Source: Halalkalicoccus sp. CGA53 (GTDB lineage: Archaea; Halobacteriota; Halobacteria; Halobacteriales; Halalkalicoccaceae). From it: a DNA stretch of 64,000 bases. Below the pieces are notes generated by a model. That model made no database searches. It was not told the DNA's origin and was given only the letters and a program-made list of their open reading frames with translations. Where the stretch lies: contig NZ_CP144124.1 in the NCBI RefSeq assembly GCF_036429475.1, forward strand, positions 186,001 to 250,000, written 5' to 3'. The position numbers were made by a program, and so were the translations under genes. This document shows, one piece after another, positions 1,832-9,544 of the stretch (positions are counted from its first letter, which is position 1; every line of letters starts with the position of its first letter).

Positions 1832-2033
1832 CCGATCGACCAACCTACCCAAGAGACCCGCTCAGTCGACAGCGAAAGCGTTCACTGCGGTTATCGTGTT
1901 CGTAGTATTGGTCACGGTGTTTGCTGAAACAGGTGATGCTGCAGCTGCCGTCTTGGGACTTCTGTCGATGACGTATGTCTTATCTATGGCGTCGGAAGAC
2001 GATCCCAAATACAATACGTGTGGTATTCGGTAA
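1828..2033 (+). pseudogene. Small membrane protein, probably frameshifted
   Basis: An ATG at 1828 overlaps the stop of the coiled-coil gene (ATGA) but its frame closes after 25 codons. The overlapping frame, from about 1875 to 2033, encodes two hydrophobic segments (AFTAVIVFVVLVTVF and AAAAVLGLLSMTYVLS) and a short polar tail. Joining the two frames with one shift near 1874 would give a roughly 68-aa protein with two membrane helices as the third gene of cassette A. No equivalent is obvious after the paralogous cassette at 55703. Confidence 0.35.
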
Positions 2034-2067
2034 CAAATGTTATCCCCATACAGAAAGATGTATAGTT

Positions 2068-3507
2068 ATGTTCAGAAATATAACCAATACACGAAGATGT
2101 CTCGATGGACTTGAGCTCAGACGGTTCACGGTGGGAGAGACGACCTTCGGTAGGAGCGCCACGATTTCATGGGCAATCAACGAACCTCGGGGACAGAACT
2201 GTAGCAACGTGAAGTATCGGATCGATTCGGAACCGAATCTCTACGATGACCTTGATCCCGGGGTGGATTATCAGGTCGGTCAGGAGCGACATCGCTTCGA
2301 CCAGCTGGAACCAGCCGGCGATGTGAGTGTTAACCCTGCTCGGACACGCACGTACACATTGGAGGCGATCCCCCGAGGACTAGTTGGTCGTATCCCCAGT
2401 CTCAAGGAAAAAACACTTGCCAGCGGAACGGTCGTCGCCGGAAATATCGTCAGATACACGCAGATGGGAGACGAGTGGGTTCGCAACCCCAATCCCCATT
2501 CTGACGCGTTCGACGACAATTCCAATGATGCAGCCGAGAAGGCCGCTGAAGGGTCACGAGAGATCATCGGGAGCCTCTCGGAATCGCATCGGCGGCGTCT
2601 TCACAACAAAGTCATTAAACTCCATCTCATCCCCGTCGACGCATCGATCACCGATCTTCCCCCATACAAGAACCTCGCGGGCGACACCAAAGGTGGGAGC
2701 GACTGGGCAGACGCAGCTGGCGCGGGAGGCGTCCTTAAAGAGGAGGGACGTATCGTGATGGCATGCGCAGAGGTCGAGATGCTCGATCTACCCGGTCGTC
2801 GATACCCTCTAGGGTACATTCTTGCTCACGAGATGGGCCATACCGTCCTTGGATCGCCACGGTCAGGAGGCCAGTTCCAGCTACACGCCGTTTCGGAGGC
2901 TGAACTCCGGAAGCTCAAAGAACTCTTCGAGGCACGCGTCGAGGAGGGAGGGGAGTTCTTGCCCGGTGTCGAGATTCTGGGCGACAACAAGGACTTTGAG
3001 GAGTACTTCGCTGAGGGAACCGCGGCGATGTTCGAGAAACCGTGGGACGGAAACAATCCTGATTCCGTTTCCATGTACACGCCCGATTGGTTGAGAGAGA
3101 ACGACCCGGACCTGTACGACCTGCTGGCCCGGATCTACTCGATGCCGAGACGTCCTCCTGTGATTGACCGATCTCGCTCGACAGTTCGTGATCATAGAGC
3201 GGAGACAGGCGACCGTGACAGGAGAGATAGCGGGCCAATAGTTCGTGATCATAGAACTCAACCCACTGTTCGTGACCATCGGAGGCGTCCTATTGTTCGC
3301 GATCACCGGGAAGAATCAGGCAGTGGAGTTGGGGATCAAGACCCAATAGTTCGCGATCACCGGAAGAACACCGGAACTCGGGAGGAAAGCGATCGAGATC
3401 CGATCGTTCGCGATCACCGAGAAAGATCCCGTGAGGACGCAGACGGCCCAGATGAACCCGATCAGGGTCCGAGGGTTCGCGACCACCGCGATTACCGAGG
3501 ACACTGA
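2068..3507 (+). CDS. Zincin metallopeptidase with a VRDHR-repeat tail
   Basis: A protein of 479 aa if it starts at the ATG at 2068; the frame is open further upstream. An HExxH zinc site, HEMGH, is at about residues 254-258. A downstream acidic motif, EEYFAEG, at about 311-317 supplies a likely third ligand. The HExxH plus [E/D]YFAE arrangement is typical of anthrax lethal factor-like zincins, so I call a zinc-dependent protease. No signal peptide or membrane helix is seen. After about residue 365 the protein becomes a charged, low-complexity tail with seven VRDHR motifs (373 to about 472), most preceded by Pro-Ile or Pro-Thr. The same motif occurs in the 3225-aa protein of the operon at 10.2-33.4 kb, so the peptidase probably works with that complex, as a processing enzyme or as cargo. 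Confidence 0.7.
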   Translation: MFRNITNTRRCLDGLELRRFTVGETTFGRSATISWAINEPRGQNCSNVKYRIDSEPNLYDDLDPGVDYQVGQERHRFDQLEPAGDVSVNPARTRTYTLEAIPRGLVGRIPSLKEKTLASGTVVAGNIVRYTQMGDEWVRNPNPHSDAFDDNSNDAAEKAAEGSREIIGSLSESHRRRLHNKVIKLHLIPVDASITDLPPYKNLAGDTKGGSDWADAAGAGGVLKEEGRIVMACAEVEMLDLPGRRYPLGYILAHEMGHTVLGSPRSGGQFQLHAVSEAELRKLKELFEARVEEGGEFLPGVEILGDNKDFEEYFAEGTAAMFEKPWDGNNPDSVSMYTPDWLRENDPDLYDLLARIYSMPRRPPVIDRSRSTVRDHRAETGDRDRRDSGPIVRDHRTQPTVRDHRRRPIVRDHREESGSGVGDQDPIVRDHRKNTGTREESDRDPIVRDHRERSREDADGPDEPDQGPRVRDHRDYRGH

Positions 3508-5358: not shown

Positions 5359-5521
5359 GTCGAGACGAGTTGCTGAAGCATCCCCTCGAACGCCAACTGG
5401 TTGAGCATAATCGACTGCACCCGGCGAGATGCCTACTTCCACTGGCGGCTGTTTACTACGCTACGTTGCGGCTCTGTTGCAATCCTTAGTGAATTACAGA
5501 TTCAGTCGGTAGTTTGAGTAG

Positions 5522-6343
5522 ATGCAGGCACTCCCAAAATCTCGATTGCTCCGATTTGCCGAGGAAGCATTTCAGTTAGCGCAACGTGCTGTGGCTCGAT
5601 ACTCCTCGAAGTTCTCGAAACAACGCTACACGCTCCATCAGCACATCGTTCTCCTGTGTCTCAAAGTTCGGAAGGACACAACGTATCGAACACTTCTCGA
5701 CGAACTCATCGAGATGCCCCGTATTCGGAGTGCGATCAACCTCACCGAACTTCCCTCCCCGTCAACGCTGTGCAAAGCGTTCGATAGACTCGATATGGCG
5801 GTCTGGCGGGTGCTTCTCAATCTCTCGGTTTCACTGCTCCCGACCAACGGTGTTGCGGGGATCGACGCTTCGGGCTTCGACCGGAATCACGCCTCAAAGC
5901 ACTACACAAAACGGACAAAGATAACGATTCAGCAGTTGAAAGTCACACTCTTAGTCGATTCGAGAGTAAACGCAATCCTCGATCTCCACGTTACAACGAC
6001 CCGCAAGCACGATACACAGATCGCACCGTCACTCATCAACCGCAACACAGCTGAAGTCGAAGTCCTGCTCGGTGACAAGGGATACGACGATCAGCAGATT
6101 CGAGCAAAGGCCCGCAAGAACAATATTCGTCCACTCATCAAACACCGTGAGTTTTCCTCACTTCAGAAAGCATGGAACGCTCGATTGGATGCCGACCTCT
6201 ACGCTCAACGGAACCAGAGCGAAACGGTGAACTCTCGACTCAAGCGTAAATACGGTGCGTTCGTCCGCTCACGACGCTGGTGGAGACAGTTTCGTGAACT
6301 CGCCCTTGCATGCCTCGTCCACAATCTCGACCTAACCCTTTAA
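5522..6343 (+). CDS. IS5-family transposase
   Basis: A 273-aa DDE transposase that appears intact. Its N-terminal helical part (1-110) precedes the catalytic core: GIDASGFDRNHAS near 114-126 gives the first Asp, LLGDKGYDDQQI near 183-194 the second Asp (DKGYD is the classic IS5/IS4 motif), and NQSETVNSRLKRKYGA near 231-246 the Glu of the final motif. The C-terminal WWRQFRELALACLVHNLDL segment is typical of haloarchaeal IS5 members. The ATG lies 52 bases inside the left inverted repeat. Related but truncated C-termini are at 35319-35584 and 39777-39890. Confidence 0.9.
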   Translation: MQALPKSRLLRFAEEAFQLAQRAVARYSSKFSKQRYTLHQHIVLLCLKVRKDTTYRTLLDELIEMPRIRSAINLTELPSPSTLCKAFDRLDMAVWRVLLNLSVSLLPTNGVAGIDASGFDRNHASKHYTKRTKITIQQLKVTLLVDSRVNAILDLHVTTTRKHDTQIAPSLINRNTAEVEVLLGDKGYDDQQIRAKARKNNIRPLIKHREFSSLQKAWNARLDADLYAQRNQSETVNSRLKRKYGAFVRSRRWWRQFRELALACLVHNLDLTL

Positions 6344-6364
6344 CGATCAGTACAGACTGTCTAT

Positions 6365-6931
6365 TCAGCGAGGATTGTCCGTCAACCACTCTAAAACTTC
6401 ACTCGCATGTTCGTCCGGTGGGAAGATTGGATAGAAGACGTATTCGATACGTCCATCAGAGACAATCAACGTTAACCGCTTCAGATAATCGTCTCCCCCA
6501 ATGCTGAACCTTGGCAAGTTAAGTTCATTCGCCAATTCCCACTCGGCATCGCTGAGCATTTCGAAGGGGAGGTGTAAGCGGTCACGGGCTTCACGTTGGT
6601 ACTCATTTGATTGCGTAGACAGTCCGAACACCTCCCCGACACCATTGTCCCGAAGTTCGTCGTAGTGGTTTCGAAACCCGCACGACTCAGGAGTACAGCC
6701 ACGGGCACCCGGTATGTCTTCCCACCCTTCTGGGATCACGTCCTCGTCAGGACGCCCCGTCATTGGATAGACGTAGATGACGGTTCGTGATGGGAGGTCT
6801 TGGAGGTTGACCGTCGTATCGTCAGTTGCTGGGAGTGACAGGTTGGGAATCTCCATTCCCTTGAGATGGTCAGCCTCACCATCATCTTCAGGTTCTGGCA
6901 GGTCGTCCGGAAGAGGGAAATCGTGGGACAT
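6365..6931 (-). CDS. Peroxiredoxin, BCP/PrxQ-like, inside an IS
   Basis: A 188-aa AhpC/TSA-family protein if it starts at the ATG at 6931; the frame is open to 6979. The thioredoxin-like core includes TVIYVYPMTGRP and the active-site stretch GARGCTPESCGFRNHYDEL. Two cysteines separated by four residues match the peroxidatic/resolving pair of atypical 2-Cys BCP proteins. It would reduce peroxides in the cytoplasm using a thioredoxin-type donor. It is convergent with the transposase and lies between the IS inverted repeats, making it a passenger gene. Both functional residues and frame are intact, so it is probably active. Confidence 0.8.
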   Translation of the reverse strand: MSHDFPLPDDLPEPEDDGEADHLKGMEIPNLSLPATDDTTVNLQDLPSRTVIYVYPMTGRPDEDVIPEGWEDIPGARGCTPESCGFRNHYDELRDNGVGEVFGLSTQSNEYQREARDRLHLPFEMLSDAEWELANELNLPRFSIGGDDYLKRLTLIVSDGRIEYVFYPIFPPDEHASEVLEWLTDNPR

Positions 6932-7186
6932 AATGCCGAGTATAACTCCTGAGCAAATAGATTTGCCGGGAAGCTCCATGTTGGAGGCCGATTTCAGACT
7001 TCTTTCTGAATAGTGAGACTGGGATCACCGGTGCTAAGCGGATGTTATTATCCGCGATGAATAGACTCCACCGACCGACTGTTTCATCCTATATTGTGTC
7101 TGAAGAATAGGATTTCAACAGAGCCTACGTTGCGTAAGTACACAACCATTCGAAAAATTACGGTATCGTCTTCAGCCCCCTTTCTA

Positions 7187-8475: not shown

Positions 8476-9544
8476 TGAGGGTGTCATAGAACGATTAGCA
8501 CACCAAAGAGCAGGGTGAATGCTGAGGTGGCATGTGCTCAGCGACCCTGCGAGATGATCCTTCGGTAGAGTCGTTCTTCAATGCCGTGGAGACAGAGACG
8601 CTAGCGCTGTTCGAGCATCTCTCCTTCGAGTTCCTCGAAGAGTTCGACGTGTTCGCCCCGTCTCCGCCGGGGCGAACACGAGACCTTGAGCCACCAGAGA
8701 TGATGCGTGGCTTTCTCCATTGCTACTACAAAGACATCTACGGGGTTCGTCCTGGTGAACGGGAGCTTCAGAACACGTTCGTCTGGCTCGGCTGTGGGTT
8801 CGATCGACCGCCGTCAAGAGACGCGGTCGATCGGTTTCTCACTGACCTCGAACACGTCGTTGACGAACTCTTTGCTCAGCTCGTCGAGCAGGCCGCGGAG
8901 AGCGGCCTGCTCGAGTTGACCTACTCCGTCGATACACCGATGTGAGAACGATGCCTGCCGACCAAGATGCATCGAAATGCTACGATCCACCCGCTGAAGA
9001 GTACTATTACGGCTACGGTTGTACAATCGTCTCGACCGGACAAAAGATCCCGATTGCAGCGGAGTTCACCGAGAGCAACAAGCACCAGAAGAGATGGCGA
9101 TGCGCGTCACACGTGACGCGCTCGCTGTCAAACAGCCGATCTGGATGGTCGGTGACAGCGCCTACGATACGCTCGACTGGCACGACCACCTGCTGGCCGT
9201 AGGGGTCGTGCCAGTTGCCCCGTACAACCCACGAAACACTGACGAGCCGAACGACAGTGAGTACAGGGTCGAAGACCGCATCACCGAACACAGCGAGGAC
9301 GTTCAGTTAAAGCAATCGACGCTAGACGAGACGTACACCCGTCGGAGTGGAGTTGAACGTACCAACGACGCGGTCAAGGACTGCGGCCTCGGGCACGTCC
9401 GCGCCCGAGGCCGCGTTCACGCACGAGCACAGGTGTTCCTTGCACTGTGCCTTCGCATTGTCGTTGCAATCACCAACTACGAACGCGGAGACAATCCGGG
9501 AACTACCGTGATCACGGTATGAGAACTCTTCTATGACACCCTCA
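8476..9544. mobile_element. Decayed haloarchaeal IS with 16-bp inverted repeats
   Basis: TGAGGGTGTCATAGAA at 8476-8491 is exactly inverted at 9529-9544 (TTCTATGACACCCTCA), enclosing 1069 bp. The single gene inside is a transposase broken by frameshifts. I could not find a direct target duplication at the flanks, so the element is old or has rearranged flanks. Confidence 0.75.
8532..9522 (+). pseudogene. Transposase with two frameshifts
   Basis: The N-terminal part (8532-8945) reads ESFFNAVETETLALFEHLSF and later FVWLGCGFDRPPSRDAVDRF. It stops just where DST/VRTMPADQD should continue, so a base was lost near 8935. The middle frame (8942 to about 9090) carries YYYGYGCTIVSTGQKIPIAA. A second shift near 9090 leads to EEMAMRVTRDALAV, then MVGDSAYDTLDW (second catalytic Asp) and RRSGVERTNDAVKD (catalytic Glu), ending NYERGDNPGTTVITV. 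All three parts would join into one DDE transposase of about 330 aa. It is inactive as it stands. Confidence 0.8.

Follow-up and report, generated by a model that had tools for sequence, protein, structure and literature searches.

A peroxiredoxin-carrying IS5-family element in Halalkalicoccus, very probably one of a haloarchaeal lineage of transporter insertion sequences and mobile insertion cassettes

Copies of insertion sequences (IS) that carry passenger genes unrelated to transposition have been described as transporter IS (tIS) (PMC3129680; PMC7986276), with a single IS6-family tIS member, ISDsp3, named in one of these accounts (PMC7986276). A comparable organization is found in IS231 and MIC231 of the Bacillus cereus group, within the IS4 family, where modular IS containing passenger DNA occur together with transposase-less cassettes (PMC2266710, its references 2 and 3). 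According to a 2008 survey, no IS family other than IS4, and no further subgroup within IS4, had until then shown IS231-like modularity (PMC2266710). Among the haloarchaea, ISHla2 (IS5 family, Halorubrum lacusprofundi pHLAC01) is a 1193-bp element with a small annotated ORF after its transposase. No literature on haloarchaeal tIS or on ISHla2 was found in a search outside which most subscription journals and ISfinder lay, and the novelty of what follows is provisional for that reason.

The DNA analyzed here, hereafter the window, is a 64,000-nucleotide stretch of the Halalkalicoccus sp. CGA53 genome. Positions 5470-7125 of the window constitute a 1656-bp IS5-family element encoding both an intact transposase and an intact peroxiredoxin of the PrxQ/BCP fold, and its features are as follows.

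5462 to 5469, no strand: left copy of the target duplication, TACGTTGC, read directly and identical to 7126-7133
5470 to 5486, plus strand: left terminal inverted repeat, GGCTCTGTTGCAATCCT
5522 to 6343, plus strand: intact IS5-family transposase of 273 aa (NF033579; DDE_Tnp_1)
6344 to 6356, plus strand: conserved post-stop motif CGATCAGTACAGA, the left edge of the cargo slot, from pairwise comparison after the stop codon
6365 to 6931, minus strand: cargo, a PrxQ/BCP-fold peroxiredoxin of 188 aa (PF08534, PF00578, fold match)
7066 to 7125, plus strand: conserved, element-specific right end of ~60 bp, from matches to the right ends of other elements
7109 to 7125, minus strand: right terminal inverted repeat, AGGATTTCAACAGAGCC
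7126 to 7133, no strand: right copy of the target duplication, TACGTTGC, exact over 8 bp

A sequence-only reading of this locus had described a single IS5-type element that encloses a transposase and an intact peroxiredoxin gene and moves as a unit; this description has been borne out, as has the exact 8-bp target duplication that it reported. The inverted repeats, which it called near-perfect, are genuine 17-bp ends that match at 16 of 17 positions, with one mismatch. As judged from this anatomy, backbone and cargo are shown to insert together, duplicating 8 bp of target DNA. The feature that defines a tIS is present, in that a gene unrelated to transposition lies inside a single pair of ends and their duplication, and the possession of one end pair, one transposase, an internal passenger and mobility as a unit is common to tIS and the window element. 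A composite transposon was also considered and is ruled out by the single transposase, the single pair of ends and the lack of two flanking IS copies.

The transposase scores 217.9 bits against the NF033579 IS5 model (cut-off 140), while the best IS4 model yields 37.7 bits, below its cut-off. Residues Y227-(2)-R230-(3)-E234-(6)-K241 fit the IS4/IS5 signature Y(2)R(3)E(6)K and are conserved, as is D115. Both features of the IS5 family are present, namely a DDE transposase signature and short inverted ends accompanied by a fixed short target duplication, which measures 8 bp in the window element and likewise in IS5 outgroup elements. Assignment to the IS231 subgroup or to the IS4 family as a whole is ruled out by the better fit of the IS5 model, the 8-bp duplication and the location of the passenger downstream of the transposase.

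Support for joint movement of the two genes can be found in a second copy of the element. A search of haloarchaeal genomes for the 1656-bp unit, as the sequence-only reading had proposed, recovered it in G047, which belongs to a different family of Halobacteria. There, the same transposase-peroxiredoxin unit (1657 aligned bases, 94.9% identity) occupies a different site, with borders GGCACAAA and GACACAAA and its own duplication matching at 7 of 8 positions. The two transposases are 96.0% identical and the two peroxiredoxins 95.8%, with values of 86.5-90.1% for the ends; the G047 transposase is interrupted by three stop codons, and the G047 peroxiredoxin frame is open. The presence of the whole unit at another site indicates that transposase and peroxiredoxin moved together, and by this comparison of sequences the passenger moves with the element. 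The dN/dS values between the two copies (0.25 for the peroxiredoxin, 0.31 for the transposase) lie too close together and derive from too few changes to prove selection on the peroxiredoxin, and were dropped as an argument to that effect.

A rival account holds that the enclosure of the peroxiredoxin is accidental, in that a second IS, or an IS right end, lay by coincidence downstream of an ordinary chromosomal gene, without any mobility of the resulting unit. In keeping with this account, all other haloarchaeal homologues found, some 20 in number (L011-L014, L026-L041), lie outside any such element, which indicates that the peroxiredoxin is a host gene by origin that was captured. The exact 8-bp duplication that flanks the complete unit, the G047 copy at another site and dozens of parallel cases in other elements nevertheless render chance trapping extremely improbable, and it is rejected on the basis of the duplication and the G047 copy, barring assembly artefacts in both. 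No empty site was found: the gene on the left flank has an 83% relative in G203, where the match stops ~100 bp short of the insertion point, and there is no match to the right flank.

Within its own genome (G000), the element is present as one full copy, alongside a solitary right end at C1:36232-36277 (L003, L232) and short diverged pieces. The solitary right end is 89% identical to that of the window element and is preceded by an ORF for a ~60-aa two-helix membrane protein and by the slot motif GATCGCTCAGTACAG; it represents the remains of a sister element. More generally, the right end of the window element shares 83-89% identity over 46-60 bp with the right ends of elements bearing unrelated cargo, a range that includes the C1:36232-36277 sequence.

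The passenger itself contains Redoxin (PF08534) and AhpC-TSA (PF00578) domains, and an in-frame ATG upstream, at 6979, would lengthen it to 204 aa. Its AlphaFold model (mean pLDDT 83, pTM 0.83) matches solved BCP/PrxQ structures in Foldseek with E values of 1e-13 to 1e-9, including E. coli BCP, the Burkholderia AhpC-like 5enu, M. tuberculosis BcpB and Sulfolobus Bcp1. Sequence profiles place the protein in the same BCP/PrxQ group as the fold search, its score against the PrxQ equivalog model being below the cut-off. It differs from the matched proteins in being only 20-25% identical to them, in possessing an extra loop (about residues 60-77) ahead of the invariant cysteine, and in belonging to a family for which Cys84 is optional. 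The earlier statement that both active-site cysteines are present is correct for C79 and C84 of the window protein, but an alignment of 29 archaeal and bacterial relatives shows C79 alone of the two to be invariant; many haloarchaeal homologues have Arg or Leu at the position of C84, such that a two-cysteine mechanism is possible without being a family rule. P56 and T58 are conserved (YPxTG) and are followed by a loop of ~17 residues, modelled with low confidence, before C79, so that the classical PxxxTxxC active-site spacing is not kept. A close relative of the protein occurs in 18 of 394 sampled Halobacteria genomes, and among those outside the window only that of G047 sits in an element, the others matching in the gene alone. 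Its intact sequence, predicted fold and low dN/dS make it probable that the peroxiredoxin is expressed and functional.

Relatives were gathered by querying plasmids and genomes with the element and its transposase, a match at E < 1e-100 being present, by our count, in roughly 150 of the 394 sampled Halobacteria genomes. Approximately 135 loci were fetched, in about 15 of which the right end was not recognisable within the available sequence; delimitation of elements by their ends and removal of duplicates left 99 distinct elements, that is, the window element and 98 relatives with transposases 77-92% identical to that of the window. Nearly all relatives share the same left end, separated from the transposase start by 52-53 bp. 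Similarity among them is lost just past the transposase stop codon and regained only over the final ~60 bp, and all 99 carry sequence between the ~13-bp post-stop motif and the conserved right end. A target duplication matching at 7 or more of 8 positions is present in 61 elements and absent in 38. The 61 with a duplication end 303-3145 bp past the stop codon (median 712), and none of them is a simple element that stops after the transposase. The sequence-only reading had offered such simple relatives as grounds for regarding the peroxiredoxin as accidentally enclosed; the sole cargo-free copy seen, L082, is decayed, with a degraded right end, no duplication and a premature stop in its transposase.

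More distant relatives are organized differently. Four IS5 elements at 42-46% identity are simple, with the right inverted repeat located 38-41 bp past the stop codon, and three of the four possess exact 8-bp duplications. In a transposase tree, all 94 of 94 ingroup sequences, ISHla2 included, separate from the simple outgroups with a support of 0.70. Together, the clade-wide presence of cargo, the simplicity of the distant IS5 elements and the tree suggest that cargo carriage is derived and stable in one clade. ISHla2 shares the ends of the window element and has a transposase 77.7% identical to that of the window, but its cargo is a ~57-aa two-helix membrane protein rather than a peroxiredoxin. 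While the families cited for tIS contain few such members, here every intact sampled member carries cargo, and that cargo is nearly always different.

The 99 slots comprise 87 cargo groups at the DNA level and 74 at the protein level, and the usual content is one or two ordinary genes that differ in almost every element. Cargoes assigned by Pfam are listed below.

Histidine kinases; a PALP-family (threonine-synthase-like) enzyme; polyprenyl synthetase; GST
PHO4 transporter with universal stress protein; formate/nitrite transporter with TrkA_C protein
Iron-siderophore-type binding protein with FAD oxidoreductase; TrmB and HTH_10 regulators
Alpha/beta hydrolase; pilin; methyltransferase; GNATs; RibD_C; TrmO; RDD proteins

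Lipoproteins or small two-helix membrane proteins are predicted for many of the other cargoes, and the main ORFs of at least 90 aa lie on the minus strand in 47 cases and on the plus strand in 32. Two slots (L073 and L138) contain another IS. The sequence-only reading had presented the locus as an exceptional IS with an antioxidant gene that could spread a selectable trait under oxidative stress, a view that did not survive as stated: cargo is the norm in the lineage and its content is varied, such that nothing singles out oxidative stress. That reading is too narrow, the peroxiredoxin being one of many cargoes. In the shortest slots (L040-type; e.g., L008, L010, L045, L100, L155), two-helix membrane proteins of 56-70 aa with little mutual similarity are seen repeatedly.

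Cargo might also persist as neutral filler, if the transposase needs its ends to be more than ~1.15 kb apart. The shortest intact autonomous member measures 1177 bp, and several slots hold no convincing gene (e.g., L058, L109, L146, L153, L154), both of which fit such a requirement. The median coding fraction of the cargo is ~0.8, however, and cassettes of 613-702 bp as well as 125-bp MITE-like copies exist with the same ends and with duplications that agree at 7 positions or all 8, which suggests that short elements can move, at least in trans. Retention of cargo as filler is, on balance, unlikely.

The cassettes just mentioned possess the ends of the lineage and lack a transposase. Exact 8/8 duplications flank L203 (1300 bp, with a PALP-family gene), L218 (652 bp) and L219 (613 bp), and duplications of 7/8 flank L222 (666 bp, with an RDD protein) and L225 (702 bp). 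These five show the hallmark of MIC-type elements, namely cognate ends and target duplications in cassettes that encode no transposase. The cargo of L203 is also found in the autonomous elements L104 and L125 (88%), and that of L222 in the autonomous L169 (82%). The MITE-like copies L115 and L221 are flanked by exact 8-bp duplications.

Taken together, the window element is very probably a member of a haloarchaeal IS5 lineage made up of tIS and mobile insertion cassettes. The lineage resembles IS231/MIC231 in combining autonomous, passenger-bearing IS with transposase-less cassettes that have the same ends, and, by analogy, it works like that system without being a member of it. IS231 belongs to the IS4 family, is bacterial and generates duplications of 10-12 bp, whereas the haloarchaeal lineage is IS5, archaeal and generates 8 bp; moreover, passengers of IS231 lie between left end and transposase, while those of the haloarchaeal lineage lie between transposase and right end (features of IS231 from PMC2266710). 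In the proposed organization, the fixed backbone consists of the left end, the transposase, the ~13-bp motif past the stop codon and the ~60-bp right end, both outer ends presumably being bound and acted upon by the transposase. The space between post-stop motif and right end serves as a cargo slot for one or two host-derived genes, here the peroxiredoxin.

Comparison of closely related backbones shows, at the level of sequence, that cargo turns over rapidly relative to the evolution of the transposase. Cargo is shared by 3 of 32 pairs at 95-98% transposase DNA identity and by 2 of 100 pairs at 92-95%, and in L124 and L126 the transposase regions are 99.8% identical, the cargoes are different and each element has an exact duplication. 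Conversely, cargo is more alike than backbone in L053/L107 (93.6% versus 86.8%) and in L104/L125 (93.4% versus 87.5%). These two sets of pairs indicate that cargo and backbone reassort. Identical or near-identical cargo units are also found at different sites (L054/L078, L056/L062, L093/L095). Exchange could take place by recombination among co-resident copies and cassettes with common ends, and a host gene might be newly acquired if it comes to lie between two ends, the inner of which is then lost. No capture event was caught, the closest donor-like copy among the tested cargoes being 88% identical; for the L104 cargo, the best copies found were 84-88% identical, with homology confined to the gene.

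The edges of the slot raise the question of whether filling is site-specific. Among 56 pairs with transposase DNA at least 94% identical and different cargo, shared sequence past the stop codon mostly ends at 11-15 bp (median 13), and a similar degenerate motif precedes the conserved right end; this is the pattern that would result if cargo entered and left at a short motif (..TCARTAC) in the manner of an integron rather than by general recombination. Selection for a functional 3' edge would produce the same pattern, however, and the elements encode no recombinase, the similarity of left and right edges per element is not above background, and some near-identical backbone pairs share 65-84 bp past the stop codon. 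Site-specific filling is for these reasons improbable, and the fixed 11-15-bp edge may reflect either a site-directed step or merely the part that must be kept. Descent from a composite ancestor was also examined by comparing each element's own left edge with its own right end, and gained no support overall, values being no better than those of background windows (p 0.13 and 0.50). An inverted repeat at the slot edges of the window element (6359-6375 / 7050-7066) exceeds the 99th percentile of cross-pairs; with 99 elements tested and with an overlap with the region of the peroxiredoxin stop codon, it may be due to chance. A sub-group of elements (L106, L118, L122, L142, L158, L166, L092) has in common a longer left slot edge ahead of different cargoes, extending up to ~80 bp and containing a small hairpin and GTGACCGA.

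The cassettes bear on a further proposal, according to which the class-B elements are transposase units fused with a neighbouring cassette whose two ends both resemble a right end (R'-cargo-R). Both termini of L218 and of L219 resemble the right end of autonomous elements, and four autonomous elements retain, at the left slot edge, an inverted remnant, TGCTGAAT, of the inner part of such an end. These observations suggest, without proving, that cassettes and transposase units fuse. The remnant is seen in only 4 of 11 class-B elements, though, and the 6359-6375 / 7050-7066 repeat of the window may, as noted, be fortuitous, leaving this origin of class B somewhat doubtful. A broader interpretation, which we put forward tentatively as one that may well prove too strong, is that the IS5 clade and its companion cassettes constitute a dedicated gene-capture-and-exchange system, in which a slot with fixed edges is refilled often and possibly in a site-directed manner.

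The lineage looks, from its sequences, like a natural gene-shuffling vehicle, and a clade-wide slot with rapid turnover is a finding worth pursuing. A compact carrier of single host genes is apparently undescribed for haloarchaea, despite their extensive gene exchange. If the proposal is correct, the lineage spreads genes for regulators, transporters, enzymes and small membrane proteins singly or in pairs, and would represent a counterpart of IS231/MIC231 in archaea and in the IS5 family. The many backbones that are nearly identical yet differ in cargo also make the uptake of passengers by IS, an old question, directly testable. Annotation masks the pattern, as passengers appear as unrelated hypothetical proteins beside an 'IS5 family transposase'.

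Two further ORFs were observed in the window outside the element. The first, at 1975-3507 on the plus strand, encodes 510 aa with an HEMGH zinc-protease-like motif and C-terminal PIVRDHR-type repeats; the second, at 8532-8945 on the plus strand, resembles the N-terminal part of another transposase and is apparently truncated.
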